Origin: a virus
IMG/VR virus record: IMGVR_UViG_3300030329_001934
Coordinates: 1-29,678 of that record
Length of the DNA stretch: 29,678 nt
Reading direction: 5' to 3' (one strand)
Below, in pieces: positions 2,866 to 21,831 of this stretch; position 1 is the first letter of the stretch, and each line of letters begins with the position of its first letter. A program made the position numbers and the translations under genes. Under the pieces are notes generated by a model. That model was not told where the DNA came from, made no database searches, and saw only the letters and a list, made by a program, of their open reading frames with translations.

Positions 2866-3049
2866 CAGATATTATTAGGCTTACCAAGTTTGCAACAATT
2901 CCATATTCTTCTAGCCTCAATGCAAATGTATTACCATTTACTGTAATCTGAAGTAAGTCATCGTGATATGAGTTGTCATCACCTATGACTTTGTCCAGTG
3001 CAACACTTATATTTGTGTCTTCTACGTTATACGATACTGTCGGTTTCAT
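2858..3049 (-). CDS. Small acidic protein between polymerase and helicase
   Basis: A 63-residue unrecognised protein starting at ATG 3049, inside the last 23 nt of the polymerase gene and ending 8 nt inside the helicase start. The overlap at both ends argues for a translated, coupled cistron. The sequence alternates polar and hydrophobic residues (LLQITVNGNTFALRLEEYG), suggesting a small beta-rich fold. A role in replication is suggested only by its neighbours. Confidence 0.6.
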   Translation of the reverse strand: MKPTVSYNVEDTNISVALDKVIGDDNSYHDDLLQITVNGNTFALRLEEYGIVANLVSLIISDE

Positions 3050-5405
3050 CTATATCTTTCCAGTTTTGTCCAACCAACGCTTCTGAACGCATTTGAAATG
3101 GTTCACCACGCGGCGAGACGAGTTTACGGTTCATGTGCTTCATGGCCTCCTTTGCAACAAAGGGGACATCCTTCTCATAACATTGGAGCAAGACGCTGTC
3201 GTGATTATTTTGCAATACGTCAACGCCCATATCCATAAGATCTTGTCGGTTTTGTAGCTCGACAAAGGCTAGGTTAGTGATACATCCAACAGTTGATTGT
3301 GGTACAAATGCATAGGCTTCCTTGTACATTGATTCGTCAATAAAGCCGGTAAAGGTTCTTGGATAGCCGAAGAGATTCTTGAGCATCTTGGTTCTTTTGA
3401 GTGTACTGATTGTTTCGTTTTGCCATTGGCTGATTTCTGGGAATAGTTTGTGGTAGGTTGCAAGGAAGCGTTTTGCTTCCTTGTTCTCAAGCGCAATTGC
3501 GCCCTGAGATTTTTGTAGCATGTTGATACGGAAGGTTGGTGCTTTCATTCCATAGTTACTTGCGTGACAAACCATCTTTGCCATGAAGTAATATCTACGG
3601 TTAGCTGGCCAGTTGTCGCTTGACTTGATTACTGCATCCACATCTTTCCAGCCCTTGATATTCTTTAGCTGACTAACTGGTGCAGAGCAGAATTCATCCA
3701 TACTCTGACCAAGCTCGGCTTCCCACACATCGGAGAATAGACGCAAGGCAACGAAGACATGCGACTTAATTCCTTCAAGAAACAATTTTCTAAAATTCCC
3801 CGGCACACAAAGATAACCGACAACCATAGCCTCCGCACCTGACTGGTCTACTTGCATCAGAACCTTGCCGCGATCTGCGATAAATAACTTACGCAGTTTC
3901 TTGGGTATGTTCTGTACATTTGTTCCCCACTTACCAAGCAAGCGACGACTTGCGAGTCTGTAGGTTGTTGTGCCAGCCAAGTTATAGGCAGTTGTGATCC
4001 TGTCTACCATTGGCTTTGTATACAGACCTTCATAGGGCGGGAACTTGATCTGACCAGATTCCTTGGCAACAGATCGGTAGCGTAGAATCAACGAGACGGC
4101 TGGTAGATTGTGCTTGAGGCGCAACTGTAGCAGCGTTTTCTCATTGGTTGGATCACGGTCAGGTTTCTTTAGGCCAAGACCTTCGTAGAGATAGTTGGAT
4201 ACCTGCTTTGGACTGTTGGGATTCAACTCACGATTAAGTAAGACTGACAACAGGCGTTTCAACTGGAACTGATAACGCTCGTTGTGCATCAAGATCCGCT
4301 TTAGTTCCGGCGTGTCTATCCGCATTCCCTGCAACATCGCAGTTAGGTATGGCCTAACCATAGAGTTAACCTGTTCAATGGATTTCTCCGCACGAATACT
4401 CTTTGCCAGCTTGTCCATTGACGGCTTAATAAGAGCCATCGTTAGTACATCCTTTACGTTGTATTCATAGAGTTGCTGGAATTGGCTACTTGTCTGTGGA
4501 TTGAAACAACCCTCGTTCTTGTGGTAAGGTTGGTCTGTGTATAGGGAAATGCAATGACCAAGTGACTTCTCTACTTCAGGAAACAAGCGATGTTGGGCAA
4601 GCATTGTATCAAATATCCGTGTTGGAGCAGGGATACCGTAGCGATATGCTATAACAAACAAATCAAACAGGGCATTATGAATAATGACGGTGTTATCACG
4701 CAAGGCTACGGCCAAGGCACGAAGAATCTTGTGAGTGTTGTCATAATAATAGTGATTGATTTGTAGCATAGGCACACACCAGCCCTTGTCAGGACCAAAA
4801 GAGAAACCGAAACAAGTCATCTCCAAGTTTGGATTTGTTTCAATATCAAAGAACATCTCCTTGCCCTTGTTGTTTGTCAGCGCATCAATCACATCCTGTT
4901 CTTGCGGATATGTGATTAGCTCGCCGGATCTTGGATCAGCTGGGATCTTTAGGTATTGAGCAGCCTTGGAGACATCGCGCAACATCCAGAATCTCCAGTT
5001 GCTACGCTTGGTCTTACCGTGTCGAACTGTCTCGTACTCCATCTCTGTCTCATTGGCCAATGGATTGAAGTAGGTCTTACGATCAATGGCGTCTTGAGGG
5101 TGATAGGTTGCCAGATAGGTGCGCTTGTGAGCCAACCAAGGGCAACCACGCTGTTCCGCTAGTGGAATGTTCTTAAAGGCTGTGAGGGACTTTTGTCCCA
5201 TCAACAAGATGACCTTTGTGTCAGGCAGAAATCCCTCGCCTAATGTCTTGAGCAATCTAATGTCACAAGACTGACGAGGGATTCCCAATGCACCTTGAAA
5301 CAGATGCCCTGCGTAGCCAGAAATAAGTTCGCAGTTGTCGAACCTACTTGGCTGATCGAGTATTACGGTTAGACCGCTGTAGTTTAGAGTTGGTTTGTGC
5401 CGCAT
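3027..5405 (-). CDS. Family A DNA polymerase with 3'-5' exonuclease and an N-terminal uracil-glycosylase-like domain
   Basis: A 792-residue replicative polymerase. Residues 1-110 resemble the uracil-DNA glycosylase superfamily (LISGYAGHLFQGALGIPR and ATYHPQDAIDR) but lack the usual GEAPG motif, so this part is probably inactive. The proofreading exonuclease shows FFDIET (about 186-191), IIHNALFD (242-249) and YNVKD (315-319). Polymerase motif A is VDQSGAEA (D about 520), motif B is K-MVCHASNYG (about 610-619) and motif C is NNHDS (about 733-737). The residue equivalent to E. coli Phe762 is His. The start is placed at ATG 5405, with AGG six bases upstream; the TTG just before it is less likely. 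The gene's 5' end overlaps the upstream 94-aa gene by 62 nt. Confidence 0.93.
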   Translation of the reverse strand: MRHKPTLNYSGLTVILDQPSRFDNCELISGYAGHLFQGALGIPRQSCDIRLLKTLGEGFLPDTKVILLMGQKSLTAFKNIPLAEQRGCPWLAHKRTYLATYHPQDAIDRKTYFNPLANETEMEYETVRHGKTKRSNWRFWMLRDVSKAAQYLKIPADPRSGELITYPQEQDVIDALTNNKGKEMFFDIETNPNLEMTCFGFSFGPDKGWCVPMLQINHYYYDNTHKILRALAVALRDNTVIIHNALFDLFVIAYRYGIPAPTRIFDTMLAQHRLFPEVEKSLGHCISLYTDQPYHKNEGCFNPQTSSQFQQLYEYNVKDVLTMALIKPSMDKLAKSIRAEKSIEQVNSMVRPYLTAMLQGMRIDTPELKRILMHNERYQFQLKRLLSVLLNRELNPNSPKQVSNYLYEGLGLKKPDRDPTNEKTLLQLRLKHNLPAVSLILRYRSVAKESGQIKFPPYEGLYTKPMVDRITTAYNLAGTTTYRLASRRLLGKWGTNVQNIPKKLRKLFIADRGKVLMQVDQSGAEAMVVGYLCVPGNFRKLFLEGIKSHVFVALRLFSDVWEAELGQSMDEFCSAPVSQLKNIKGWKDVDAVIKSSDNWPANRRYYFMAKMVCHASNYGMKAPTFRINMLQKSQGAIALENKEAKRFLATYHKLFPEISQWQNETISTLKRTKMLKNLFGYPRTFTGFIDESMYKEAYAFVPQSTVGCITNLAFVELQNRQDLMDMGVDVLQNNHDSVLLQCYEKDVPFVAKEAMKHMNRKLVSPRGEPFQMRSEALVGQNWKDIDETDSIV

Positions 5406-5628
5406 CAAGTGCCTGTTCTTTTAGTTGGTCACGCATTGATTTACCGTCTTTACTGTCCTTGAGGTAGTCTTGAAGCATCAAGATTACATCATGTATTCCA
5501 GACAAATAACCATCAGCCACGGCTTCGGCAGTTTTGTCCATGTTAATTACACGCAAACGCTCAAGTGCTTGAGCGTATTTGGGTTGCTCGGCGCAAACCT
5601 CATCTATTATTGATTGTATTTCTTTCAT
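5344..5628 (-). CDS. Small helical protein upstream of the polymerase
   Basis: A 94-residue unrecognised protein, mostly helical and rich in Lys, Asp and Gln. The ATG at 5628 has an AGGA Shine-Dalgarno about five bases upstream, and its start overlaps the stop of the upstream membrane-protein gene by ATGA. Its 3' end runs 62 nt into the polymerase gene in another frame, so the last 20 or so residues share DNA with the polymerase N-terminus. The ribosome site and junction overlap support it as real; no function is visible. Confidence 0.6.
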   Translation of the reverse strand: MKEIQSIIDEVCAEQPKYAQALERLRVINMDKTAEAVADGYLSGIHDVILMLQDYLKDSKDGKSMRDQLKEQALDAAQTNSKLQRSNRNTRSAK

Positions 5629-5837
5629 CGTATTCCTGATCCTTTCCTTTGCAGAGGTAGATCAAATATAAAATTTGTAATTCCAAGTGGTGTAGTATGT
5701 TTAACTGGCTTCTCTTGCTGCATGCTGACTAGGATTAGTATTATTACATAGAGCAGCAGGGTAAGAATAGCTTTCGGATAGTCTTCGTTTTTCATGAATG
5801 TGTAGGCGATCAATGGAGAGTGATAGTCTCGTTGCAT
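5625..5837 (-). CDS. Small single-span membrane protein
   Basis: A 70-residue protein with one clear transmembrane segment at about residues 24-39 (ILTLLLYVIILILVSM) flanked by charged residues (KNEDYPK before, QQEKPVKH after). It sits in the replication block, ATGA-coupled to the next gene. The position and single hydrophobic segment do not identify it: a lysis role is possible, but no other lysis gene is nearby. The ATG is at 5837 and no strong Shine-Dalgarno is visible. Confidence 0.5.
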   Translation of the reverse strand: MQRDYHSPLIAYTFMKNEDYPKAILTLLLYVIILILVSMQQEKPVKHTTPLGITNFIFDLPLQRKGSGIR

Positions 5838-5870
5838 CTTAATAGCAATCTGTACCTACACATCTAGTGT

Positions 5871-6374
5871 TTATACGATGTCTTGATCGGGCGCAGCCGA
5901 CAAGAGTTGATTAACAGAATAACCGTTGAATGTGATAGGATCACCCGTTGAAGGGTCGAGCATTGCCTCACCTTCGGCATTTTTCTTGGTGATCTTCTCT
6001 GTGTTGATGGTCGCGTAAGCAGCCTTGCCCTTGTATAGGTCTGCATTAGTCTTGACCGTACCCCAAGGATCGTTTTCATCTTCACAATCCAACTCAAGAG
6101 GCAGGTTAAGAGTACGATGCACACGCTTTATACGAGCGGCAGACTTCTCCATGAACACCAAGTACTCGCGGAATTGCAAACCAGCAATCCGCACATTGCC
6201 CAATTCATCGTCGTCGATGGATTCGGGTGCAACAATTTCCCAAGACAAGACAACCATAGGATTGCCAGCTTGAGACGTTCTCGATTCTGCATCAGCAATG
6301 CGAATCGTGTATGTGTCTGCGGGTAAGAACGGTCTAGCGTTCTCCGATACTTCATTTAGGTTTATAGTAGGCAT
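5871..6374 (-). CDS. DUF669-like protein, probable single-stranded-DNA-binding or recombination accessory
   Basis: A 167-residue protein starting MPTINLNEVSENARPFLPAD. The opening, the beta-rich body and the acidic C-terminus (AAPDQDIV) resemble phage DUF669 proteins, which commonly sit beside Sak4-type ATPases and act like ssDNA-binding proteins; here it is adjacent to such an ATPase. The start is placed at ATG 6374 because AAGGA lies about nine bases upstream. The longer in-frame extension to 6482 begins with TTG and lacks a ribosome site. The Shine-Dalgarno lies at the edge of a small palindrome (6388-6402) that could partly mask it. Confidence 0.65.
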   Translation of the reverse strand: MPTINLNEVSENARPFLPADTYTIRIADAESRTSQAGNPMVVLSWEIVAPESIDDDELGNVRIAGLQFREYLVFMEKSAARIKRVHRTLNLPLELDCEDENDPWGTVKTNADLYKGKAAYATINTEKITKKNAEGEAMLDPSTGDPITFNGYSVNQLLSAAPDQDIV

Positions 6375-6387
6375 TTGTTTATGTATC

Positions 6388-6402
6388 CTTGCATCATGCA
6401 AG
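6388..6402 (-). promoter_or_regulatory. Palindrome at the ribosome site of the DUF669-like gene
   Basis: CTTGCAT-C-ATGCAAG is a perfect 7-bp inverted repeat. On the - strand transcript its right arm ends in AAG, the first bases of the AAGGAT ribosome site. A short stem here could reduce translation of the DUF669-like gene. It may instead be a protein-binding site. Confidence 0.35.
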
Positions 6403-6552
6403 AAAGTTTGGAAATTCTCCTCGACCCACCAAGGAGTTAATGAGCCGAGGTTTAGTGGCGGTTGTTGCCCAGTCATCCCCAAGACCTGTGCCAGCCTTTC
6501 TAACTGGCGGGTTATTGGTTATTACTAACACCACTAAATTGTGTTTAGGCAT
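6394..6552 (-). CDS. Possible 52-aa protein filling the gap between the Sak4-like and DUF669-like genes
   Basis: An ATG at 6552 overlaps the last codons of the ATPase gene by 8 nt and opens 52 codons, ending with TGA at 6394-6396, just before the ribosome site of the DUF669-like gene. The product begins MPKHNLVVLVITNNPP and ends LVGRGEFPNFLA. It fills an otherwise empty 170-bp gap in a tightly packed operon. No Shine-Dalgarno is visible. A competing in-frame N-terminal extension of the DUF669-like gene covers the same bases; both cannot easily be right. Confidence 0.35.
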   Translation of the reverse strand: MPKHNLVVLVITNNPPVRKAGTGLGDDWATTATKPRLINSLVGRGEFPNFLA

Positions 6553-7189
6553 AGTACTTTTCTAGTTGAGTTATAACTTCGTTGAGATCGTTTGGTATGT
6601 ATAGATTCTTAAACAAACCAAGCGGCGTTTTTGCAGAAGTTATCCCGTCTGAATTTGTCTGGAAACAATACTCGATGGAATCCTTCTCGCGTCTCACCTC
6701 GGTAAACAAAACAAGGAGTAGCTCCTTCTCTATGCAGCCTTCATGTACTTTGCCCTGCACCTTGATGCGACGGGTATTATACTCGCCGCCAGTTGGTTGC
6801 ATGACCTTGACAATTTCATCTATGGCTGTGATTACAACGATAGCCTTCTCGTTCTTGAGGCTTTCAAGCATCTTGCGAATAGCCTTGTTGTAGTATGACC
6901 AGACATCATAACCCTTATACATTTTCTGGGCTGTGTCTATGAGGATTTCACAATACTTGGTGAACGACTCGATGACAACGATGTCTGCATTTTTTGTAGC
7001 TGTGTCTATCGCCTTGTCTATCTCAGGCAACGTTGTAGCTGTGATTACATGGAAGTCTTTAGCTTCCTGAAATGGAAATCCCTTGCGCTCAAGGTCAATA
7101 ATAATTGTATCCTTGGACGGTAGATTCCGCAGTGATGTTGACTTGCCGGTCCCACTAGATCCGACTATTCCAATTAGAGGTTTGTTCAT
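6545..7189 (-). CDS. Sak4-like / AAA_24 ATPase of the RecA fold (recombination)
   Basis: A 214-residue P-loop ATPase with Walker A GSSGTGKST (residues 10-18) and Walker B-like IVVIES (70-75). Length and layout match phage Sak4-type RecA-like ATPases that act in single-strand annealing with an SSB-like partner; the DUF669-like protein just downstream and the Cas4-like nuclease upstream complete a typical recombination-replication set. ATG 7189 has AAAGG five bases upstream and overlaps the preceding stop by ATGA. ATP binding is well supported by the motifs; the recombination role is from family knowledge and neighbours. Confidence 0.8.
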   Translation of the reverse strand: MNKPLIGIVGSSGTGKSTSLRNLPSKDTIIIDLERKGFPFQEAKDFHVITATTLPEIDKAIDTATKNADIVVIESFTKYCEILIDTAQKMYKGYDVWSYYNKAIRKMLESLKNEKAIVVITAIDEIVKVMQPTGGEYNTRRIKVQGKVHEGCIEKELLLVLFTEVRREKDSIEYCFQTNSDGITSAKTPLGLFKNLYIPNDLNEVITQLEKYYA

Positions 7190-7431
7190 TTTTGCCTTTC
7201 TTTTAATTCTTTTAGTTCTCTCTCTCTTCTCAGTTTTTCTTTCAATACATAAAGGTAGTGAAATTGATCTATCGTTTCTTCAATTGCGGAATCAACAAGT
7301 TGCTCAGTCGTCATGCGCCACATTCCCTTGTCTCCTTTGGGATTGTGTTCCATCATGCCAACCTCAAACTTCTTGGGAGCTTCCTTTATAAACAATTCTA
7401 GAGCGTGTCTTTTTATTTCTGGATCTTTCAT
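7186..7431 (-). CDS. Small conserved-looking protein with an EExxD helix
   Basis: An 81-residue protein coupled by 4-nt overlaps to the genes on both sides. The central part KFEVGMMEHNPKGDKGMWRM is followed by the helix EETIDQFHYLYVLKEKL, whose EExxD pattern recalls MazG-like or dATP/dGTP diphosphohydrolase-related small phage proteins. One acidic helix is too little to claim enzyme activity. The highly charged C-terminus (KLRRERELKELKERQK) is probably a coiled helix. Confidence 0.55.
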   Translation of the reverse strand: MKDPEIKRHALELFIKEAPKKFEVGMMEHNPKGDKGMWRMTTEQLVDSAIEETIDQFHYLYVLKEKLRRERELKELKERQK

Positions 7432-8336
7432 GTTTGGAATTCTAATGGGTTGTAGAGTTTAGTATAATATTCATTTTCTATAACAACTTCGGCGTGTTCG
7501 CCTGCATTGCAGACATTAGCGAATTTGCACATTCCAAATTTTGTCTCGCAACAATTGAAATTTGGCAAGAAGGGAATCATGTTTTTCTCCAATCCCAATC
7601 TGATATTGTCAGCAAAGTTCTTTACCGTCTGCGTCAAGTGGTTCTCGAATTTCTCCATTCTATCAGCAGAGAAATCAAGAATTGCACTCCGTTGAAACTT
7701 GTTCTTGCCGGACCGCGACAAGAATATGCCATTGATAATGGCTTGGTAGTTGCGGTCAGGGAACAGTTTGCGTAGCACCATCGTGTATGCCATCAGTTGT
7801 GTGGACATGCGATAGGCATTGAGGTAACGGTCAATTGCTGTGACTGCCGTGGACTTGTGATCGCAGATTATGTTCTCGCCAAAGTAAGTGCCGAGAAAAT
7901 CTATTGTACCACAAAGCAACACATCAACTGTGCCGTTTGTATAGAACGGATACGCGAACTTCATTTCAAGAAGTGGTTCGCCCATGTGCCGGTCAACTAC
8001 AAGACCATCAATCTCTGCATAATTTTCAAAGTATTGATTCAAGCAGTTGGCCAGATGACCCGATGTGCGCCAGTCAGTTTCAGGCACAACAATTTCAGGG
8101 TTAGAGTAGTGTTCCAAGGCACGATTGAGTGCGGTAGTCTTGTCGCCGCTTGAATAGAATTCCTCAAGTGCCTTGTGATATGCAGTGCCATACTCCATTT
8201 TGTGATTCATGTGATTGTTCCGCAGACCACGAACTGTGGTGTAGTAGAACTTCAAGTCACATGTTGATTCACGATAAGAAGAGGCATCTATTCTCAGGAT
8301 GTACCTGTCTTCTGTTTTTTCAAGATAATGTTTCAA
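7428..8336 (-). CDS. PD-(D/E)XK nuclease of the Cas4/RecB type with a probable Fe-S cluster
   Basis: A 302-residue nuclease. Visible elements: Cys26 in STCDLKF, His54 in YGTAYHKALE, Asp146 in GTIDFLG, the D-x-K core CDHKS (Asp159, Lys161), Gln180 in STQLMAYT, and a C-terminal cluster CCETKFGMCKFANVC (Cys262/263, 270, 276). One N-terminal and three C-terminal Cys is the Cas4/AddB-type 4Fe-4S arrangement. It probably processes DNA ends in phage recombination; it is not part of a CRISPR locus. The start appears to be TTG at 8336: a stop lies two codons upstream and the next ATG would remove Cys26. The start overlaps the upstream 58-aa gene by 17 nt. Confidence 0.85.
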   Translation of the reverse strand: MKHYLEKTEDRYILRIDASSYRESTCDLKFYYTTVRGLRNNHMNHKMEYGTAYHKALEEFYSSGDKTTALNRALEHYSNPEIVVPETDWRTSGHLANCLNQYFENYAEIDGLVVDRHMGEPLLEMKFAYPFYTNGTVDVLLCGTIDFLGTYFGENIICDHKSTAVTAIDRYLNAYRMSTQLMAYTMVLRKLFPDRNYQAIINGIFLSRSGKNKFQRSAILDFSADRMEKFENHLTQTVKNFADNIRLGLEKNMIPFLPNFNCCETKFGMCKFANVCNAGEHAEVVIENEYYTKLYNPLEFQT

Positions 8337-8496
8337 GGTTTAATTTGCGACCACGCCGCTTCTTTACCATGTTTAATTCTTCTGGTTCATTTGGACGAGC
8401 GATCTCCAAGTAGGGCTTCATGTGTTCAAGAAGCTCCGAGTCAGTCATCTTCTCCAACTTGTCTACTGACACATCAAGTAATTGTTCAAGTGTCAT
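8320..8496 (-). CDS. 58-aa charged protein upstream of the nuclease
   Basis: A short gene with ATG at 8496 overlapping the upstream stop by ATGA, and its end overlapping the nuclease start by 17 nt. The product begins MTLEQLLDVSVDKLEKMTD and has a basic patch VKKRRGRK near the C-terminus. Two acidic/amphipathic helices followed by a basic tail recall small phage proteins of unknown role. Its position closing the gap between two genes, with overlaps at both ends, is the main support. Confidence 0.65.
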   Translation of the reverse strand: MTLEQLLDVSVDKLEKMTDSELLEHMKPYLEIARPNEPEELNMVKKRRGRKLNLETLS

Positions 8497-8780
8497 TTCA
8501 CTAGCAAATCTGCATTAGTTGCAGATTTTTTATAAAGATATGATACATCTTTAATTGATTTTACATGCTTCTTGATTATTGCTTCTCTTTTTGCATGTTC
8601 TTTTTTCAACTTGGCTGTTCTTTTAGATAGCTCAGAGCTTAAATAGGCAGACAAGTGTCGATTTACCAAGTCTTCAACAATAGTTCCGATAGATACATGA
8701 TCTCCTCCAAGTTTGTTGAAACTGTTTTTACACAACACCAAGTCTGCCCATACTTTAGAAGATAGTCTGATTGATTTCAT
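8493..8780 (-). CDS. Small protein with a ribbon-helix-helix-like N-terminus
   Basis: A 95-residue protein. The first 45 residues (MKSIRLSSKVWADLVLC, then VSIGTIVEDLVNRHL) have the strand-helix-helix pattern of ribbon-helix-helix DNA-binding proteins; the rest is a Lys-rich helix. It could be a phage repressor or nucleoid-type protein. This is inference from pattern only. It is the first gene after an 88-bp gap, and no Shine-Dalgarno is clear before the ATG at 8780. Confidence 0.5.
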   Translation of the reverse strand: MKSIRLSSKVWADLVLCKNSFNKLGGDHVSIGTIVEDLVNRHLSAYLSSELSKRTAKLKKEHAKREAIIKKHVKSIKDVSYLYKKSATNADLLVK

Positions 8781-8868
8781 GTGTTTATGTCAAAGGCTGC
8801 ACAAAATAAACAACCAAAGAAGAAAAAGAAAAAGAGTGTACAAATTATGTCTGCAAACAATGCGTCAG

Positions 8869-9369
8869 TCATTTCATCACCCTCACTTTCGATTCAGTTA
8901 TATCCACTTCAGACTCAGGGCCAACTAGATTGTAGACCCACTCTTTATCATCATTGTTCACAGCGACACTTCGCTCAAATAACTCAGAGTCCTTGGCAGT
9001 CTTGTACCATGTCTCAAGATCATTCTTCCACTTGATTGAATCGTTGAATTCGTATTCGATCTCACGGAGAGCCATTGTATTCTTTGTTGTGTCCTTGAAG
9101 TAGACAAGGATTCCATTGTCCATCTTGCGAACAGCAACACGAGGTCGTAGTAGTGTGTATTTGTCCTCGTTAAAGTTGTCGATGATGAACTTAAAACCAT
9201 CATTAAACTTAACGTACAATGTGTTGGGAGTCATGTTAGTCTCTTGTGACGACATGTAAGCGTCCCGCCCTGTCTCCAATAGCTGATCCAAGATAGGTTG
9301 AATCTGCTTGGCCGCTGCTGGTGAATAAGTTGAGCGTCTTGGCTTTATGCTAGTGTCTTCGCTTTGCAT
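8869..9369 (-). CDS. Hypothetical phage protein
   Basis: A 166-residue unrecognised protein. It has a charged N-terminus (SEDTSIKPRRST), then a body with alternating strands (TLYVKFNDGFKFIIDNF, GILVYFKD) and an acidic Trp-containing second half. ATG 9369 lies 25 nt inside the upstream gene, with GGAG close to the start. It belongs to the unit read from the sigma54-type promoter at 9781-9797. The 88 bp after its stop (8781-8868) hold no gene on this strand. Confidence 0.6.
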   Translation of the reverse strand: MQSEDTSIKPRRSTYSPAAAKQIQPILDQLLETGRDAYMSSQETNMTPNTLYVKFNDGFKFIIDNFNEDKYTLLRPRVAVRKMDNGILVYFKDTTKNTMALREIEYEFNDSIKWKNDLETWYKTAKDSELFERSVAVNNDDKEWVYNLVGPESEVDITESKVRVMK

Positions 9370-9746
9370 TGCTCCATTAATTCCTTTGCTTTATCTGTAT
9401 CACCATTGGCCATAGCCTGTTGTGACATAATGAAGAGTTTCTTTGCGGATAACTCTCTTGTTGTTGGATGCCAGCCGTTACAATCTTCCTTGGAGAAGAT
9501 GCAACCGTCAGGGTGTTTGCGATAAAGCTCATCTTTGTACCGATGAAGCTGTGAGCTTGGCAAGTTTTTTGGCAGACTATTTTTCACTTTTGTGCGTAGC
9601 CTAGACTGAACTTGTTGATTGAGCAGGGCCAAAACAGTAGGTTCTGTGTAGGCTTCGACTGCTTCGCTTAACTTCTCAAAGACCGGAACGTAAAAAGAGA
9701 TTTTACGGAAGTCTCCATCAATGAATTTTTCTAATTTGTATTGCAT
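9345..9746 (-). CDS. Hypothetical protein, first gene after the sigma54-type promoter
   Basis: A 133-residue unrecognised protein with an N-terminal helical part and a Cys/His-containing middle (HPDGCIFSKEDCNGWHP) too short to be a convincing zinc site. The C-terminus is helical (SQQAMANGDTDKAKELMEQC). The ATG at 9746 lies about 24 nt after the predicted start of transcription from the -24/-12 promoter and has no Shine-Dalgarno. It leads the replication unit. Confidence 0.6.
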   Translation of the reverse strand: MQYKLEKFIDGDFRKISFYVPVFEKLSEAVEAYTEPTVLALLNQQVQSRLRTKVKNSLPKNLPSSQLHRYKDELYRKHPDGCIFSKEDCNGWHPTTRELSAKKLFIMSQQAMANGDTDKAKELMEQCKAKTLA

Positions 9747-9780: not shown

Positions 9781-9797
9781 AGCAACTTGCATGCCAA
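9781..9797 (-). promoter_or_regulatory. Sigma54 (-24/-12) promoter P1, facing the replication genes
   Basis: The - strand reads TTGGCATGCAAGTTGCT: GG at -24 and GC at -12 separated by exactly 10 bases, matching the RpoN consensus TGGCAC-N5-TTGCW with one mismatch. The predicted start of transcription is near 9770. It fills the 68-bp gap between the sigma54-activator gene and the next gene. Two copies of AACCGATT (9765-9772 and 9796-9803, 31 bp apart) flank it and may be a binding site. Confidence 0.75.
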
Positions 9798-9814: not shown

Positions 9815-10531
9815 TTAATAGTTGATTAATTCACCCAACAACTTGTACCGAGCAAGGATGCTTTGTAATTCACGGTAGTTGCCGTAGAGTGGCGTTAGCT
9901 TCAAGATTTTCTCAGTGATTTCTTTCGGGTTATCGAAACCTTGCTTCTTGATATATAGAGCAAGGTCATCTGGTCTATCTCGGAGTGGTGTGGTTTGGAT
10001 AACAAAGACGCTGATCCTGTGGAATAGGTCGAGGCGAAAGCTGCCTTCCCTTACCATCTCACGCAAATCCCTGTTTGTAGAACAGACAATTCGACACTTG
10101 GACTTAACCATCTTTGTTGCTCCGACTTTGCGAAACTTCTTCTCTTGTATGTACCGCAATAATTTGGGCTGTAAGGGAAGCGGTAACTCACCAATTTCAT
10201 CGAGGAATAGAGTGCCATCTTCTGCATGTTGCACTAGGCCACCTGTTTCACGGGTTGCTCCCGTGAATGAACCTTGCATGTGACCATACATAAGAGATTC
10301 AAAAAGATCTTCAGCCAGTGTGGTTGTGTTAACGGCTACAAAGTTGGAGCCGCGAGTTGTGTCTTTACGAGTACGCTTGCCGTGTAGAATTTCAGCAAAA
10401 TGCTCTTTACCCGTACCAGACTCCCCCGTCACCAAGACGGGGGAGTCGTGACATGCTAACACTTGAGCAAATCTAATTTGCTCAAGCATGTGCGGATCTT
10501 GCGTGATAAGTTTACTCATCCTTGTACTCAT
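9815..10531 (-). CDS. Phage-encoded sigma54 transcription activator, AAA+ core only
   Basis: A 238-residue protein that is nearly all the central AAA+ domain of bacterial enhancer-binding proteins. Walker A is GESGTGKE (36-43), the sigma54-contacting loop is GSFTGA (87-92, normally GAFTGA), Walker B is GTLFLDEIGEL (106-116), sensor I is STNRDL (151-156), the probable arginine fingers lie in FRLDLFHR (165-172), and sensor II is GNYREL (217-222). There is no receiver or other N-terminal domain and no C-terminal helix-turn-helix. It should hydrolyse ATP to open RpoN promoters, acting without its own DNA contact or with a partner. The ATG at 10531 overlaps the upstream gene by 20 nt; an ATG at 10519 is possible. 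Three matching sigma54 promoters occur in the window. Confidence 0.9.
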   Translation of the reverse strand: MSTRMSKLITQDPHMLEQIRFAQVLACHDSPVLVTGESGTGKEHFAEILHGKRTRKDTTRGSNFVAVNTTTLAEDLFESLMYGHMQGSFTGATRETGGLVQHAEDGTLFLDEIGELPLPLQPKLLRYIQEKKFRKVGATKMVKSKCRIVCSTNRDLREMVREGSFRLDLFHRISVFVIQTTPLRDRPDDLALYIKKQGFDNPKEITEKILKLTPLYGNYRELQSILARYKLLGELINY

Positions 10532-10706
10532 CAATTATAACTTCACTCGTTATGGCTTCCTCTAATAGTTTAGACCAATTCCAATCACTAGGATGATCGT
10601 TGTAGGATGACCACTCAAACGAGAGTGTTATCGTAATCCACTGTTTTTTCTCTGGCTCAACAGGAGGATGTTCATTCTCTCGTTGACCCCATGCATCAAG
10701 TGTCAT
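10512..10706 (-). CDS. Small acidic protein upstream of the sigma54 activator
   Basis: A 64-residue, Trp-rich acidic protein (QWITITLSFEWSSYNDHPSDWNWSKLLEEA) with no recognised family. It starts with ATG 10706, overlapping the DUF932 gene by 4 nt, and ends 20 nt inside the activator gene, so the three genes are probably translated together. It might modulate the activator, which has no sensor domain of its own; that is only a positional guess. Confidence 0.55.
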   Translation of the reverse strand: MTLDAWGQRENEHPPVEPEKKQWITITLSFEWSSYNDHPSDWNWSKLLEEAITSEVIIDEYKDE

Positions 10707-11461
10707 GTTAGCTTTGCAAGGATTTGCTTGGAGACACGTTGCGTTAACTCAAACTTATCATCAGCAAGAGGCGTGAGATATTGAGTGACAGCATTGTATA
10801 GATTGTAAGTGCTGCGTGTTCTGTCCAGATCATAGGTTGGCTTTAGCCAGATCTTCTTGATCTCCTCAATATGTTTCTTGGCAACTTTGACAGGCTTCTC
10901 TGCAAGCGAATCCAAGAACTCCGTACCTTCAAGCGGAGTAATTAGTTTGGTTGACATGTGCTTGAAGAATTCAACAGAAGCAATCCAGCTTTCTTTGGAT
11001 GCCTTAATCGTCTCTTCAAGGAACTCCAAGTTAATGTTGGTCGAGTGTTGGCGACTCACTTGTTTGCTGTCCGACATCACAATCATGCCGTTGGAGCAAA
11101 CCATGCGAAGTAAACCAGCCCCCAACATAACACCAGTTGAACCATCGTATGAGTTCTTGGCCAACAGGCGAAAGCCAACATCATCTCCCGGTTGTATTTG
11201 ACGGCGTTGATCGTTGAAATCATAGACGGCATAGATGCGCCGACCACCGTTGATTGAATAGACCTTGCGCTTGTAAGGGCCAAAGTCCAGATTATCCTCG
11301 ATAGTATCGAGAACATTTTGGTGATGAATAATCTTGTACTTGTCTGATGTAACAGCAAGGCATTCACCTGTGTCTTGTCGAAAGTTTCCTTTGTAACCTT
11401 CGATCTTGTTTCCTCCTCGATCAAAAATTGATCGACTAACGACTTGATAGTTATAGTTCAT
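10703..11461 (-). CDS. DUF932 family protein
   Basis: A 252-residue protein with the DUF932 (phage/plasmid-like) signature: a nucleotide-fold-like start SDKYKIIHHQNVLDTIED, then NSYDGSTGVMLGAGLLRMVCSNGM around residues 103-126. These proteins are common in phages and plasmids and their biochemical role is not established. The ATG at 11461 lies 11 nt inside the upstream gene. No clear Shine-Dalgarno. Confidence 0.8.
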   Translation of the reverse strand: MNYNYQVVSRSIFDRGGNKIEGYKGNFRQDTGECLAVTSDKYKIIHHQNVLDTIEDNLDFGPYKRKVYSINGGRRIYAVYDFNDQRRQIQPGDDVGFRLLAKNSYDGSTGVMLGAGLLRMVCSNGMIVMSDSKQVSRQHSTNINLEFLEETIKASKESWIASVEFFKHMSTKLITPLEGTEFLDSLAEKPVKVAKKHIEEIKKIWLKPTYDLDRTRSTYNLYNAVTQYLTPLADDKFELTQRVSKQILAKLT

Positions 11462-11687
11462 ATATTAGTTTGTCTATTTCTTTTAGGTTTTTGTCATGTA
11501 TTGTGACGTATGTGAATGCAAACACATACGCACGTTTATAGCCCTCAACACAAGTGTTGAGGACTCCGCATTTTTCGATGATTTTAAGGCAAGATCTGTT
11601 GTTGATTCTCTTGCAGATTCGATGCATCCATTCATCCAGAAGTTCCTCATCGGGCGGAATCTCCCAAGCATATCGGTGAATTACCAC
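11451..11687 (-). CDS. Small Cys-containing hypothetical protein
   Basis: A 78-residue protein with no recognised domain; four Cys are spread over its middle third (RICKRINNRSCLKIIEKCGVLNTC). The frame opens at GTG 11687, with a stop nine codons upstream; no ATG precedes residue 21. No Shine-Dalgarno is visible, so the start is uncertain. The end overlaps the DUF932 start by 11 nt, which supports translation. Confidence 0.5.
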   Translation of the reverse strand: MVIHRYAWEIPPDEELLDEWMHRICKRINNRSCLKIIEKCGVLNTCVEGYKRAYVFAFTYVTIHDKNLKEIDKLIYEL

Positions 11688-11761
11688 GGGTACAAATAAT
11701 GTTGCTATTGGTTATGATGCTGGTATGGCTTACAACCGGCACACAAAACATAGCGATTGGT

Positions 11762-12106
11762 TCACCAAAAACATTCATAGGTTACAGTGCAGCCATCGGC
11801 AAGTGCTTTCCTTGCTTTTGCAACGAAGTTTAAATCATTGGTAGTGTGATAATTCATATCATCATACGAATCTCTACCAAAGAAGAATCCCTCAGTCTTC
11901 GGCAACATTGCACCACGGACTGTCTCTTCTAGTTCATCTATATCATCAGAAGTTAATTCAATTGGTATCAAATTGAATACTTCGTCACCACCTCGACTGC
12001 GATAGAGATTATCCATCCAGCCTTGTAGCCGATTGTGCTTGCGCCACTCGGCTAATGTTATTTCCTTGCCACCTTTTGTGGCATACGCTCTTTGATCTAG
12101 TCCCAT
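11762..12106 (-). CDS. Conserved phage protein starting MGLDQRAYA
   Basis: A 114-residue protein of a type often seen in phage early regions: MGLDxxAYA start, EWRKHNRLQGWMDNLY, then ELTSDDIDELEETV and the GFFFGRDSYDD block. Such proteins are sometimes labelled phosphoglycerate kinase in databases without support; no kinase motif is visible here. The ATG has a good AAGGA site seven bases upstream. It overlaps the upstream gene by 10 nt. The 74 bp after its stop contain no gene. Confidence 0.7.
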   Translation of the reverse strand: MGLDQRAYATKGGKEITLAEWRKHNRLQGWMDNLYRSRGGDEVFNLIPIELTSDDIDELEETVRGAMLPKTEGFFFGRDSYDDMNYHTTNDLNFVAKARKALADGCTVTYECFW

Positions 12107-12312
12107 TTATTTTCCTTTCTTGCCCAGCGCACCCATTTGTCAGGATTGCCGTAGATTTTTCTTGCCCTGTTTATCCTATACTTTTTGTCAGGATAATTTG
12201 TCTTGTAGTTTGCTGTTCTACTTTCATGTAGACCAACCTCACTCCTATTCAGTCCATGCCGTATAGCAAACTTCTTAAAAGCATCATCAAAACTTTTACA
12301 ATAATTATTCAT
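12097..12312 (-). CDS. Small basic hypothetical protein
   Basis: A 71-residue Lys/Arg/Tyr-rich protein (ESRTANYKTNYPDKKYRINRARKIYG) that may bind nucleic acid by charge alone; no domain is recognised. ATG 12312 has AGGA about five bases upstream and overlaps the preceding stop by ATGA. Confidence 0.6.
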   Translation of the reverse strand: MNNYCKSFDDAFKKFAIRHGLNRSEVGLHESRTANYKTNYPDKKYRINRARKIYGNPDKWVRWARKENKWD

Positions 12313-12623
12313 ATTAGTCCTATATAAGAATTAAAAATTGAGTAGTCTTTTGGTGGTAGTACTTCTAGTGGAGGAATGCAACAGTGTACCTTGTGTTCTA
12401 GCATGTACTTGTATTGATCTATTGTTTTGTTGCACTCAGGTGGATCTTCCCAATCGTTGATATAAGATTCAAAGTACTTGTTTTTAGCCGGATACTTTCG
12501 CAGCACAAGTTGACCATTGCTTTTCTGAGTTAACCAATTGCGTGAAAACTTGCTGTTGTGATGCTTACCTCTTCTAGACCGTTTGCCGTAAGCAAAATCA
12601 TTATCCCACCAATTATAGTCCAT
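12309..12623 (-). CDS. Hypothetical protein with basic Trp/Tyr-rich N-terminus
   Basis: A 104-residue protein starting MDYNWWDNDFAYGKRSRRGKH, with a CC pair near the end (HKVHCCIPPLEV). No family is recognised. The ATG has AAGGG upstream at suitable spacing and overlaps the preceding gene by 11 nt. Confidence 0.6.
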   Translation of the reverse strand: MDYNWWDNDFAYGKRSRRGKHHNSKFSRNWLTQKSNGQLVLRKYPAKNKYFESYINDWEDPPECNKTIDQYKYMLEHKVHCCIPPLEVLPPKDYSIFNSYIGLI

Positions 12624-13014
12624 ATCTGCTAACCCTTTCTATTCCTAATTCATCTCGCAGTGTGTTTGGATAAAAGTCTATTACCTTGTACCAACTCCGA
12701 CTGTCAATAGGTTGTGTCCATTGATGGCCCACAAATGAACCGAGGTATTGTTCGTGGTCCTCTTGAAAGAACCGAATACTTCTATCATACTCAGCAAACA
12801 AGGCGTTGAGTCTTGACTTGGTTGTGGGTGTTGGCCAACCCGCTAGTGTAACGAAGAGTTGACCGTTGCGTCGTCGAGCAATAACGTGACCGTGCAAGAT
12901 TAACTCAGTCATTGGCCCAGCGATTGTCTTTGTTGTTCTAACTTGCGTATTGTCGCGTGTGAATTTGCGATCATTGCGAAATGCGCGAGCTGCGTCTTGT
13001 GCTATTTTTCTCAT
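12613..13014 (-). CDS. Conserved-looking phage protein
   Basis: A 133-residue protein starting MRKIAQDAARAFRNDRKF, with a strand pair TELILHGHVIARRRNGQLFVTLAGW and ending PNTLRDELGIERVSRYGL. The pattern of an N-terminal amphipathic helix followed by 'LHGHVIARR' is common among small phage proteins of unknown role. An AAGGA site precedes the ATG, which overlaps the upstream HNH gene by ATGA. Confidence 0.65.
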   Translation of the reverse strand: MRKIAQDAARAFRNDRKFTRDNTQVRTTKTIAGPMTELILHGHVIARRRNGQLFVTLAGWPTPTTKSRLNALFAEYDRSIRFFQEDHEQYLGSFVGHQWTQPIDSRSWYKVIDFYPNTLRDELGIERVSRYGL

Positions 13015-14243
13015 ACTATTTTCTTTCCTTTCTTTAGGTTGTCAACCGCCCATAGCGGTTGTAAATTTGACCAATGAAAGCATTCACGCTGCTCCTCTTC
13101 ATTGGTTAGATCAAATGCCGCACATGGCATGATGTGGTCGATGTGAATTTTACCGCCGGATTTTAGGAATACATCCCAGTTCATGCCCGCTGTGAACTTT
13201 GATTCAATGTGAATCACCAAGTCATCAAAGGAGCAACCTACTAATTCTTCAGTAGACATTCTTTTTTTCAAGCCTGACTCTAGCATTAATGCATCTCTCA
13301 CCCTACCTCTCAGGCGACAGGCCACTGCGTATGATGGACTTGTTTTTCTTAAAGTTCTCATATAGGTGTTTCTCTTTAGTTGAGCCTCACGGTTGTTCCT
13401 CATTCTGTTGAGGTGTCTCAGGTAGTTCTTCTCTACCATCTCCGGGTGTAGTTCCCTGTAGTGCTTTACGGAACAAGCTTGGGAGCAGTATCTTTTAGGA
13501 TTGTGGCTCCTGTTAAGTCTGCCTTTTGTAGTGGTGAAAGTGTTTGAACATTCGGGACGTTTACACACCGCTTGCACCTTTTCCACAAGCGGTTTTGCCC
13601 AACTCTTTGCAGCTATACGCATGGCCAAGGTATAGCATTTTTTGTTGCAGTATTTCTGTGATGAATAAATAAATGGGATGGATTTCTCTACTCTACCGGC
13701 CCAATCCCGTGAGCCGACTTTGGCCAGCGATTCTGCTTCACTGACTTTCTTGTATGTTCTCACACCGATGGTGAACTTGAACCACTCACCACACTGGACA
13801 CAATTCCTTCCATGTTCTTTTTTCTGGTTTTCTTTTGTCTTCTGTCTGCACCTTGCTAGGTGTGCTTCATACTCAGGGCTTTTCTTTTGCTTACGCATTC
13901 TTGCTTTGCTCTCACAACTCTTGGCCCCATAGCTACAATAATTAAGCATCTTGTTTGGACACTCATACCTATAGGCAAGCATCTCTTTGCCACACTCGTC
14001 ACACTTTTTCTTGAGCTTTCTTCTTTCTGCTCTTTGCTCATCGTTCAGCCTTGCACCTTCTCCTCTTGACTGTCTTTTCCTTTCCGCAAAACGTTGGGCG
14101 CATTTAGTTGAGCAATACTTGGGCCTCTTGCCGTTGGAGTATGTGCCTGTTTCAGGGTTGTATGTAGATATATGATTGGTTTGATTTCTCTTGGTGGGAT
14201 CAAACATCTTGTCACACCACTCACACTTGATTTGTAGGATCAT
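13011..14243 (-). CDS. HNH endonuclease with four tandem zinc-binding modules
   Basis: A 410-residue protein. The C-terminus carries an HNH nuclease: KIHIDHIMPC (His367, Asp369, His370), then WSNLQPLW (Asn393) and DNLKKGK. The first 260 residues hold four Cys sets: 7/10/44/48, 81/84/103/110, 148/151/199/203 and 227/232/253/257, each CxxC (or CxxxxC) followed by YC-x(3-6)-C, as in small zinc fingers. Such arrays are probably DNA-binding. Stand-alone HNH genes in phage operons are often mobile (homing) enzymes. The ATG has GGAGG seven bases upstream and 4-nt overlaps link it to both neighbours, so it is well fitted into the operon. Confidence 0.85.
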   Translation of the reverse strand: MILQIKCEWCDKMFDPTKRNQTNHISTYNPETGTYSNGKRPKYCSTKCAQRFAERKRQSRGEGARLNDEQRAERRKLKKKCDECGKEMLAYRYECPNKMLNYCSYGAKSCESKARMRKQKKSPEYEAHLARCRQKTKENQKKEHGRNCVQCGEWFKFTIGVRTYKKVSEAESLAKVGSRDWAGRVEKSIPFIYSSQKYCNKKCYTLAMRIAAKSWAKPLVEKVQAVCKRPECSNTFTTTKGRLNRSHNPKRYCSQACSVKHYRELHPEMVEKNYLRHLNRMRNNREAQLKRNTYMRTLRKTSPSYAVACRLRGRVRDALMLESGLKKRMSTEELVGCSFDDLVIHIESKFTAGMNWDVFLKSGGKIHIDHIMPCAAFDLTNEEEQRECFHWSNLQPLWAVDNLKKGKKIV

Positions 14244-15013
14244 GTTGTGGCCTCCAGTTGTGCGCCGTTGATAGGAGAGTAGGCGTTGCCGTCTTCAACG
14301 AAGATCAGTCCTTGACCTCGCAGTTGTGGATCATCAGTTGCCTTGTAGGTTTTAAGGTCTTCGCAACCGTCTCCATAGAAGTTGTAACCGTCGTCTGTGT
14401 ACCAAGAGTGTGAGTTGTCGTTTGTTCCAAATGGCATGATGGTTTGCTTGGGGTCAAGCGTGTTTGGCGCGTAAAGATGTGCGTCTGTGTAGTAAAAAAC
14501 CTCTTCGCCACAACTAAAGATGCGTGGCATTGTGTACCCACCACGAACATCAGCACCGTTGTGGACTTGGATTGCCACATAATCATCGCAACCGTGAATG
14601 GTGAATTGTGTGTACTGTATTGTTTGTGACAGCAGACACTCACCATTGTAAGTATTCTCACCCACTGGATCTTGACCTATAATAGAAGTTGCGTTGAAAC
14701 ACTTGATGAAGTTCTCAACTACTGTCGGCCAGTGTAAATCAACTTGTGATTTGCGTGTAGCAAACTTTTGAAAAGCAGAATCAATGCGCTCATCGTAGTC
14801 TAGCCTGTCGATCATCCAGTGGTAGAGGCTGTGAGTAATGCAGATGTCTAGTTCATCTTTGTAGATTGAGAACTCCGCTGTTGTCTCTGGCTCGTTGTCG
14901 AAATCACGGCCTTGGTTGCGTTGCCAGTGGCGATTATTTGCCCCGCCACTATCTAACATGTGACGGCCTGTGTTCTCTGTCAGCATTTGCTTGACTATGG
15001 TTTCAGTTTTCAT
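14240..15013 (-). CDS. Conserved phage protein with LDSGGANNRHW motif
   Basis: A 257-residue protein with the opening ENTGRHMLDSGGANNRHWQRNQ and a Gly/Asp/Tyr-rich body, a pattern I know from many phage early-region proteins of unknown function. The second half is rich in beta-type segments (YTQFTIHGCDDYVAIQVHNG). There is no catalytic signature. Its start overlaps the upstream gene by 11 nt and its end overlaps the HNH gene by 4 nt. Confidence 0.7.
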   Translation of the reverse strand: MKTETIVKQMLTENTGRHMLDSGGANNRHWQRNQGRDFDNEPETTAEFSIYKDELDICITHSLYHWMIDRLDYDERIDSAFQKFATRKSQVDLHWPTVVENFIKCFNATSIIGQDPVGENTYNGECLLSQTIQYTQFTIHGCDDYVAIQVHNGADVRGGYTMPRIFSCGEEVFYYTDAHLYAPNTLDPKQTIMPFGTNDNSHSWYTDDGYNFYGDGCEDLKTYKATDDPQLRGQGLIFVEDGNAYSPINGAQLEATT

Positions 15014-15509
15014 GGTAGTGTATAGTTACATTTGTATTTTTTAGTTTTCCTTTTCTTATTAGATTCTGCACACGCAGAATAAAATTCTCAGAGTGTGTGG
15101 GGATTAATACTTTCAAGGTGAATAATTCATCTAGTTTTTCACGCAACCCCATCAGATCGGCAATTGGCCACTCGTAAATTAGGTTAAGAATTAGATTAGG
15201 CAATTCACATTGTATGGCAGGGTGCAAATGTTCTTCAGGGAAAGGCCAAACGCAGTTTATTTTGTTGTCTACTGCGTATGTGAAATGCAAAAGTGAGTTG
15301 TAAATGGTTGATTCACCGTTGCCCATCATTTTTGGTGAATCTTGTGTACCAATGAGCTTGTTAGATAGGGCTTGCGCTCTTTTTTTATTTGTTGATTTCG
15401 GAAGTTCTTTAATCTCTGGCCAAGTATATGCAAGGGGATCATAAGAAATGCGCGGTCCACACAAGATATTTAGCCAAGATGTTTCTAATTTTTGTGATTT
15501 TATTTCCAT
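15003..15509 (-). CDS. Hypothetical protein
   Basis: A 168-residue unrecognised protein. It has a Pro/Trp-containing middle (NCVWPFPEEHLHPAIQCELP) and hydrophobic helices (LILNLIYEWPIADLMGLREKLDEL). The ATG at 15509 is 10 nt inside the upstream gene. No Shine-Dalgarno is clear, so coupling is likely. Confidence 0.55.
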   Translation of the reverse strand: MEIKSQKLETSWLNILCGPRISYDPLAYTWPEIKELPKSTNKKRAQALSNKLIGTQDSPKMMGNGESTIYNSLLHFTYAVDNKINCVWPFPEEHLHPAIQCELPNLILNLIYEWPIADLMGLREKLDELFTLKVLIPTHSENFILRVQNLIRKGKLKNTNVTIHYHEN

Positions 15510-15871
15510 ATTTCAACCCAAGGTAGCCGCTCTTTACAATGAGCGATAAAATCTGAGGTGCAATGAGACTCCCAAGCACCCCAAACACAAGACTCCGTGT
15601 CTGTTTCCTCGTCAAATCGGTGATAGCATGTGACTCTGTTCCACCCACCAAATACATTTTTGTTTATACAAAAATCATCCAATGCCTCACACGCTGCAAA
15701 TATATAAAAGCCAATTGCAGCAGCCAGTTCTTTGGGCGGTGGTCCACTTATGGTTGGAATTCCGTTGTTGTCTACGAAATCTTCAGCAGGGAATGTATTT
15801 TTAAATTGCTTATCGTTTGGCCTAGATAAGCCAAGATTTTTAGCAAATGTTTCAAGTTCTGATTTGTTCAT
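15500..15871 (-). CDS. Hypothetical protein with Cys-rich C-terminal half
   Basis: A 123-residue unrecognised protein. Its middle is a hydrophobic helix (PKELAAAIGFYIFAACEALDDF), and its second half has several Cys, His and Trp (CYHRFDEETDTESCVWGAWESHC). The ATG at 15871 lies 10 bases after a 22-bp perfect palindrome, which would form a strong hairpin just before the start. Confidence 0.55.
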   Translation of the reverse strand: MNKSELETFAKNLGLSRPNDKQFKNTFPAEDFVDNNGIPTISGPPPKELAAAIGFYIFAACEALDDFCINKNVFGGWNRVTCYHRFDEETDTESCVWGAWESHCTSDFIAHCKERLPWVEIWK

Positions 15872-15881
15872 TTATACAAAT

Positions 15882-15903
15882 GGGGGGTGCAATTGCACCC
15901 CCC
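15882..15903 (-). other. 22-bp perfect palindrome between two leftward genes
   Basis: GGGGGGTGCAA joined to its exact complement TTGCACCCCCC. In the leftward transcript it forms a GC-capped hairpin between the stop of one gene (15912) and the ATG of the next (15871), with only a weak T-containing tail. Possible roles are a partial terminator, RNA stabiliser or protein site. Confidence 0.6.
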
Positions 15904-15911
15904 TTGTGGTT

Positions 15912-16502
15912 TTATGCGTTCAGTTTGTCGTGTTCTGCATCAAGCGCATCCATTTTGGCATAGATTTCATCTTGTGCTTTTCCTTTTGCTTTGCGGGATG
16001 CAATTTCAAGTTTCCTGCGTTCTTTGAATATTTCATCCATTCGCGCTTGCCGTTCCTCAGTCTCCTTTAGTTTGGTTTTGAGTGTAGATTGAGACTCGCC
16101 GGGAGTTCTGATTTTGAAGCACTCTTTACCGGCAAGAGCATTTGTGACATTGTCGAGCTTTGCCTCAATGCCCAAGTTGTCAAGACGTTCACCATCTTTG
16201 CTGGTCTTTTGAGCGGTCTTAAATGCTCCATTGTTGAGCCGGTAGGCAATGGCGTCCCTAATGAATTCGTCTGCTTCACAATCAATTGAACCGTTATTTT
16301 TTAGTTGGCAAATCCAGTCAACGTAGTCTTGTAGATCGTTGACTGCTTGTGTTCCATAGGTGAATCCCCAATAGGTGAATGGTGTTTTCCCTTTTGAGCT
16401 ATTTTCAAGAGCAAGCGTGAGTTGTGGTCCTTGTGAACCGTCTTCATTTACTAGGCAGACTGTCGCCTGCTTTCCGTCATTGGATATTAATTTAGTTTTC
16501 AT
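15912..16502 (-). CDS. Hypothetical protein with coiled-coil C-terminus, first gene of the early operon
   Basis: A 196-residue protein. The N-terminal two thirds are mixed; the last 60 residues (TKLKETEERQARMDEIFKERRKLEIASRKAKG...) are a strongly charged coiled coil. No family is recognised. I place the start at ATG 16502; the frame also offers a TTG at 16517, but no conserved feature needs it. Upstream is a sigma70-type promoter (-35 at 16553-16558), giving a short leader of about 20 nt. First position after this promoter suggests early, high expression. Confidence 0.65.
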   Translation of the reverse strand: MKTKLISNDGKQATVCLVNEDGSQGPQLTLALENSSKGKTPFTYWGFTYGTQAVNDLQDYVDWICQLKNNGSIDCEADEFIRDAIAYRLNNGAFKTAQKTSKDGERLDNLGIEAKLDNVTNALAGKECFKIRTPGESQSTLKTKLKETEERQARMDEIFKERRKLEIASRKAKGKAQDEIYAKMDALDAEHDKLNA

Positions 16503-16529
16503 ATGTAGTCTGGCCAAGCCAGTTCAAGG

Positions 16530-16558
16530 ATGATGCGGCAGGGGGTAAGTTTTGTCAA
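16530..16558 (-). promoter_or_regulatory. Sigma70-type early promoter
   Basis: The - strand has a perfect -35 TTGACA (16553-16558), a 17-bp spacer and -10 CATCAT (16530-16535, four of six matches). The predicted start near 16523 is about 20 nt before ATG 16502. It would drive the long leftward operon that ends with the sigma54 activator. Confidence 0.6.
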
Positions 16559-18284: not shown

Positions 18285-18301
18285 TTGGCATACATGTTGC
18301 T
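18285..18301 (+). promoter_or_regulatory. Sigma54 (-24/-12) promoter P2 for the late operon
   Basis: TTGGCATACATGTTGCT: GG (18287-18288) and GC (18299-18300) are separated by 10 bases, and the sequence is nearly identical to P1 and P3. The predicted start of transcription is near 18312. It lies between the terminator at 18157 and the first structural-block gene at 18388. Confidence 0.75.
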
Positions 18302-18313: not shown

Positions 18314-18406
18314 ATGAGCCAACGCTCGATAGAGATTTGCGAGAAGACTCCCTTGATTCGGTATGCAATCCATGTTAATCCAGAGGTATGGCAACGACTA
18401 AAGTAG
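18314..18406 (+). CDS. Possible 30-aa leader peptide at the start of the late transcript
   Basis: ATG 18314 lies about two bases after the predicted P2 start, so the message would be nearly leaderless. The 30-codon product starts MSQRSIEICEKTPLIRYAI and ends NPEVWQRLK, and overlaps the start of the 956-aa gene by 19 nt in another frame. It could couple translation of the next gene, whose AGAGG is only one base from its ATG. Chance is a real alternative. Confidence 0.35.
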   Translation: MSQRSIEICEKTPLIRYAIHVNPEVWQRLK

Positions 18407-21601: not shown

Positions 21602-21831
21602 TACACGACAGACTAAAGGTAAAAAACGGACGGCTCTTTGCCGTGCAGAATAAAAACAGAAAGTTCGGTTCAGTCACCAAATATATCTTCACATATCTTG
21701 AAGACAGTAAGGGAGACAACGAAACACCCTACTTGTTTACACCAAGCCAACTGCGGGTTGCAAAGAAACGAGCCGAGGCAAATCCAGAAGACTTGCTGGA
21801 GAAAGACTTTCTAACAGACTGGTTTGATTGA
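21598..21831 (+). CDS. Small basic protein in the packaging block
   Basis: A 77-residue protein, Lys/Arg-rich at the start (MIHDRLKVKNGRLFAVQNKNRKFG), ending EDLLEKDFLTDWFD. No family is recognised. ATGA overlap with TerS and a TGATG junction with the nuclease gene place it firmly in the packaging operon. Confidence 0.6.
   Translation: MIHDRLKVKNGRLFAVQNKNRKFGSVTKYIFTYLEDSKGDNETPYLFTPSQLRVAKKRAEANPEDLLEKDFLTDWFD

Follow-up and report, generated by a model that had tools for sequence, protein, structure and literature searches.

A phage-encoded core-only sigma-54 activator and a predicted set of sigma-54 promoters in an uncultured phage family

A phage genome deposited in IMG/VR encodes a protein that, judged by its sequence, is a sigma-54 activator cut down to its AAA+ core. 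We propose, with a probability of about 85%, that this protein is made early and acts on host sigma-54 polymerase to open three phage promoters, for the replication, structural and capsid genes, probably independently of enhancers. The analysis covered the whole virus record (29,678 bases), referred to here as the window. Phages redirect the host RNA polymerase by means of sigma-like factors, co-activators or polymerases of their own, and sigma-54 is the one bacterial sigma factor that needs an ATP-driven activator.

The core-only activator and its relatives

The activator reading frame starts at ATG 10531 (or TTG 10534) and stops at 9815-9817; the initial annotation had located it correctly, and only the strand had to be changed to minus. 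The Pfam family Sigma54_activat (PF00158) spans residues 9-179 with 191 bits against a curated cut-off of 20.2, and the closest solved structures are the AAA+ domains of NtrC1, NtrC, FleQ and PspF (E 4e-38 for PspF). The NCBIfam sigma-54 activator models match as well, led by RtcR (E 8.9e-68), whose full-length cut-off is set far above this match. In PHROGs the protein matches phrog_7998 (E 6.6e-39), yet this family is 339 positions long and has no described function. An AlphaFold model on a 13-sequence alignment had a mean pLDDT of 48.8 and was set aside.

All of the motifs first noted in this 238-aa protein were seen again, namely GESGTGKE (Walker A), GSFTGA, GTLFLDE (Walker B), FRLDLFHR (arginine fingers) and GNYREL (sensor II), together with STN as sensor I. 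GAFTGA is the sigma-54 contact loop. Downstream of sensor II the protein has nothing beyond LQSILARYKLLGELINY. Since it stops just past sensor II and no open frame precedes it, it has neither an N-terminal sensor domain nor a C-terminal helix-turn-helix (HTH), in agreement with the initial annotation.

In three scans of viral contigs, a complete activator gene could be read in 25 relatives, at 61-100% identity. Their activators are all 239-248 aa from stop to stop, and neither flanking domain is found in them. Walker A, G(A/S)FTGA, Walker B, sensor I and sensor II are each kept in 25/25 relatives and the arginine-finger motif, by a strict pattern, in 22/25; the loss of GAFTGA or Walker residues that would have spoken against an activator was thus looked for and is absent. 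At the sequence level the gene is under purifying selection, with dN/dS of ~0.07-0.18 and synonymous sites near saturation.

A scan with a mixed alignment returned 80 loci, about 30 of which are distant core-only activators at 36-46% identity, most of them 255-305 aa long. In some of these the GAFTGA loop has Tyr/Ser variants, GSYSGA among them. Of 31 distant core-only genes, 24 are followed within 300 nt of the stop by a site that differs from the sigma-54 pattern at no more than two positions; close downstream of the genes L104, L106 and L114 none was found. The pattern TTGGCAYNNNNNNTGCW is carried by 22 of the 25 records whose activator is a distant core-only one (55 sites) and by 2 of the 16 whose activator is full-length (one site each), and a reversed-pattern control gave 0 in both sets. 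The corresponding Fisher p of 1.9e-6 overstates independence, because the records of each set are related to one another. At one further locus (L112, 3316-3867) a core-only relative has GSHSTA, a degraded form, in place of GAFTGA, and a weak site, CTGGCATATACAATGCT, lies one base past its stop; this may be a decaying copy.

Five distant records were read whole (G022, G027, G034, G044 and G045). They have their gene order in common with the window, including homologous polymerase, DUF3987, nuclease, terminase and portal genes, and four of the five have a homologous capsid gene, the G045 record stopping short of it. All five have candidate sites behind the activator and ahead of the structural genes. 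Of the four that extend to the capsid gene, three (G022, G027 and G044) have a candidate in front of that gene as well; no recognisable sigma-54 site was found at this place in G034. In a tree, a branch with 99/99 support separates the core-only proteins from the full-length ones, and the only protein classed as full-length on the core-only side (L111) is cut by a contig end. The best fit, on a tree that is unrooted and has long branches, is a single old acquisition, after which the gene was passed down along with the phage family. The comparisons point to a core-only activator as a trait of a whole uncultured phage family. This family is apparently without an isolate among the 50,697 phage records searched, since none of them contains a match to its capsid protein.

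Among the matches in INPHARED that were inspected, MT121960, a human-gut phage, is the sole genuine phage. It carries a separate core-only activator of 304 aa (19770-20684) between a primase gene and further genes, and a nearby 226-aa protein (16540-17220) that by eye is possibly sigma-like. The MT121960 core-only protein falls outside the family clade on a long branch, no sigma-54 site was found in this genome, and a scan for relatives with its activator as query gave no matches. Four other entries filed as phage (MT838090, MT836026, OR848101 and PQ159899) have full-length sigma-54 activators amid bacterial genes and are probably contamination. The first three, with their activators in host-type DNA, were rejected on this ground, as was a Helicobacter match that resembles the host protein FlgR. 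A polymerase scan of bacterial genomes for the host gave a best match of only 23%, and the nearest terminases, from Akkermansia phages at ~30%, are too weak a match for naming one.

Predicted sigma-54 promoters and genome layout

The window has exactly three perfect matches to TGGCAYNNNNNTTGCW (Table 1), where 0.10 would be expected and 100 shuffles gave at most 1; we reject chance as their origin. All three sites are intergenic and each is oriented toward the downstream gene. In published sigma-54 promoters TGGCAC is centred at -24 and TGC at -12 (PMC12316311), and the phage sites match this definition in their elements, their GG-N10-GC spacing and their sense direction upstream of genes.

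Table 1. Features of the window, with their positions and the evidence or context for each
Feature	Position	Strand	Evidence or context
Replication module, predicted promoter 1 target	1627..9746	-	ORFs, Pfam/PHROGs, synteny
Predicted sigma-54 promoter 1, TTGGCATGCAAGTTGCT	9781..9797	-	Between activator stop and replication module; perfect match to TGGCAYNNNNNTTGCW
Core-only sigma-54 activator (bEBP AAA+ core), 238 aa	9815..10531	-	PF00158 E 1.4e-56; PDB NtrC1 E 2e-47
Leftward gene block, putatively early (DUF932, small ORFs, 410-aa Cys-rich protein)	10512..16517	-	ORFs, Pfam, synteny
Candidate sigma-70-type early promoter TTGACA-N17-CATCAT	16530..16558	-	Upstream of leftward block; conserved place in relatives
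Predicted sigma-54 promoter 2, TTGGCATACATGTTGCT	18285..18301	+	Upstream of structural operon; orthologous in G003, G017, G018, G019 and G020; candidate counterparts in G022, G027, G034, G044 and G045
Structural/packaging operon, predicted promoter 2 target	18388..26646	+	PHROG terminase match, weak SU10 portal match, synteny
Predicted sigma-54 promoter 3, TTGGCACACAAGTTGCT	26647..26663	+	Between scaffold-like and major capsid gene; orthologous in G003 and G017-G020; counterparts in G022, G027 and G044
Major-capsid-like protein, 464 aa, predicted promoter 3 target	26759..28153	+	Position after portal and scaffold-like gene

The sites recur in the close relatives. Each of the first 16 relatives has one TTGGCAYNNNNNNTGC, directly after the activator, and the reversed control gave none; in a clade at 76% polymerase identity the site at this place is the textbook TTGGCACGAAGGTTGCT in most members. 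The near-complete relative G003 has three sites at orthologous places despite diverged surrounding DNA. Across six genomes, a site that keeps the GG-N10-GC spacing exactly and deviates from the pattern at two positions at most is present in 18 of 18 regions, whereas the same regions when shuffled had one in 0-1% of cases, or about 0.5% per region, and the antisense strands held none. We therefore regard the three conserved sites as predicted sigma-54 promoters, and the three promoters invoked by the initial annotation are borne out to this extent.

Promoter 1 would serve a replication module with genes for 133-aa and 166-aa proteins, a PD-(D/E)XK nuclease, AAA_24, an SSB-like protein, DNA polymerase A and DUF3987. 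The operon behind promoter 2 consists of a 956-aa gene, the terminase (22177-23682; PHROG match E 2e-25), a portal-like gene (23639-25402) and a scaffold-like gene. The capsid-like protein is 97% identical in G003; no family match was found for it, and the names 'major capsid' and 'scaffold' are given from position only.

The leftward block adjoins the activator gene on its upstream side and on the same strand, with the activator as its final gene before the first sigma-54 site and a gene for a 64-aa protein overlapping the activator start. The candidate sigma-70-type promoter of this block rests on conservation, because in a promoter scan the count of TTGACA-type sites in the region was no higher than chance; GGTTGACA stands at the same place in G018, G019 and G020. 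This recurrence makes early synthesis by the main host polymerase plausible, and to the same degree the original placement of the activator in an early operon.

Several other elements of the layout were noted. The 410-aa protein of the leftward block (13011-14243, minus strand) has, by eye, several CxxC pairs and an HNH-like C-terminus, and in G003 the neighbouring genes have nothing between them that corresponds to its gene, which suggests the insertion of a mobile endonuclease. Between two leftward genes lies a perfect palindrome, GGGGGGTGCAATTGCACCCCCC (15882-15903), a predicted terminator on both strands and a possible attenuator in the block. Upstream of promoter 2, a terminator-like hairpin followed by G-rich tracts and the block TCTGAAAAAATGACCTCAAAAA (18127-18260) is strongly conserved in relatives; its possible roles are those of a packaging site, an end site or an upstream activator site.

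The leader of the capsid gene (26684-26724) contains two hairpins with the same hexaloop, AGGGCA, and stems that differ yet are complementary: GGTA/TACC and GTGA/TCAC in the window, and GCCA/TGGC, GCGA/TCGC and GTAAA/TTTAC in relatives. Exactly two AGGGCA hairpins, both in the capsid leader, are present in 10 of 11 genomes of the phage family, and the G045 contig ends just after its two. No Rfam match was found for them, and their single-sequence folding energy is not unusual (z 0.5). They are a strong candidate for an undescribed RNA element.

Proposed mechanism and rival explanations

We propose that the activator is synthesised early, probably from the sigma-70-type promoter of the leftward block, and that it would assemble into an ATPase ring. 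The ring would contact host sigma-54 holoenzyme poised in closed complexes at the three phage -24/-12 promoters, and ATP hydrolysis would remodel these complexes so that open complexes form. In this way promoter 1 would switch on the replication module directly downstream of the activator gene, promoter 2 the packaging and structural operon, and promoter 3 the major capsid gene. The partner is likely to be the host sigma-54, since an RpoN DNA-binding domain is absent from six relatives, whose records are near complete at best, and also from MT121960; RpoN is assumed to be present in the host. Together with the orthologous positions of the three sites, this lends support to the earlier suggestion that the phage uses host RpoN.

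How the activator would reach its promoters is where the main rival arises. It has no domain for binding DNA, and the regions upstream of the three promoters have no sequence in common, so that action from solution, without an enhancer, is probable; in a k-mer comparison of the window, no k-mer of at least 9 nt is common to the 250 nt upstream of all three. The rival holds that the core acts at the same promoters while tethered by a second phage or host protein, in an enhancer-dependent split system. An activator without an HTH is open to this reading, natural AAA+ activators being usually tethered, and DNA binding could come from adjacent phage proteins; the candidates for a tether are the 64-aa protein and a host enhancer-binding protein. 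A block around TCTGAAAAAATGACC, shortly before promoter 2, is conserved in the window and G003, with variants in G017 and G020. This block, however, is found at one promoter only. Moreover, promoter 1 begins 18 nt past the end of the activator gene and promoter 3 immediately at the stop codon of the gene before it, so that only coding DNA lies upstream of both. Together with the k-mer comparison, these observations make a tethered system unlikely.

The remaining alternatives concern what the activator is for. It could be an accessory gene of host origin, rewiring or jamming the host sigma-54 regulon (nitrogen, envelope, stress), the phage promoters being incidental. A core-only activator is expected to be promiscuous, as DctD250 is (PMC3844500), so host sigma-54 genes would probably be affected, and we regard their activation, by analogy with DctD250, as a possible side effect. 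For an accessory gene, however, one would not expect three phage promoters to stay at orthologous positions over large divergence, nor sites to track the core-only activators, and we consider this reading improbable. More improbable still is that the -24/-12-like motif is read by something other than sigma-54 while the AAA+ protein has a different function, for example as a helicase loader. The gene adjoins replication genes and has a weak PHROGs match to a DnaC-like helicase loader (E 5.6e-5), but PF00158 matches at E 1.4e-56 against E 6e-7 for the next, unrelated AAA family, the contact loop is intact throughout the close relatives, and the sites keep exact GG-N10-GC spacing and in one clade match the textbook consensus in full. 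Activation of the three phage promoters by a core-only protein acting through host sigma-54 thus remains our preferred reading, and the genomic support for it is strong.

Significance and comparison with known systems

The protein family itself is known; its use as a phage transcription switch with its own promoter set appears new. In the open-licence literature searched, which leaves most subscription journals outside, neither a phage-encoded sigma-54 activator nor a phage programme based on sigma-54 promoters was found. The initial remark that this is not known as a common phage strategy is consistent with that search, but the window is not a one-off, the trait extending over a whole uncultured family. 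We consider it likely that this family of tailed phages runs its replication and virion genes via host sigma-54 with its own enhancer-free core-only activator, and so represents an undescribed class of host takeover.

Looking ahead, if the proposal is correct, these proteins would be natural counterparts of engineered core-only activators in phages dependent on host rpoN. The switch would be a tight one, with no middle or late transcription unless the activator is present. Host range would be tied to RpoN, rpoN mutants are predicted to resist infection, and infection is predicted to flood the host's own sigma-54 regulon. We note that natural minimal activators of ~240 aa, apparently enhancer-free, could be used for studying sigma-54 promoter opening and as orthogonal expression tools.

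The closest functional parallel is DctD250, the engineered AAA+ core of Sinorhizobium DctD, which activates many sigma-54 promoters from solution, enhancer-free and without promoter specificity (PMC3844500). Both proteins consist of the AAA+ core alone, with no sensor and no DNA-binding domain. DctD250, however, is a man-made bacterial truncation, whereas the window protein occurs naturally in a phage, with a lid region that is shorter and with promoters of its own to which it is linked. Natural activators without one or both flanking domains include FleT of Rhodobacter sphaeroides, CtcC of Chlamydia and FlgR of Helicobacter (type Ic; PMC3162934, PMC7482065). All three resemble the window protein in having no DNA-binding domain, and FleT, like it, has neither an N-terminal sensor nor a C-terminal HTH, whereas CtcC retains its N-terminal regulatory domain; all are chromosomal and none belongs to a phage. 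PspF is a close AAA+ relative that also lacks a sensor domain, but it is a host stress protein that binds enhancers through a C-terminal HTH. Among phages, precedents for takeover are the phiEco32-type sigma factors (PMC8948821) and T4 late transcription with the gp45 clamp as activator (PMC2988020), in which, as proposed here, a phage product redirects the host RNA polymerase to middle or late promoters. These phages supply sigma-like factors or a sliding clamp, whereas the phage described here would supply an ATPase that activates the host's own sigma-54.
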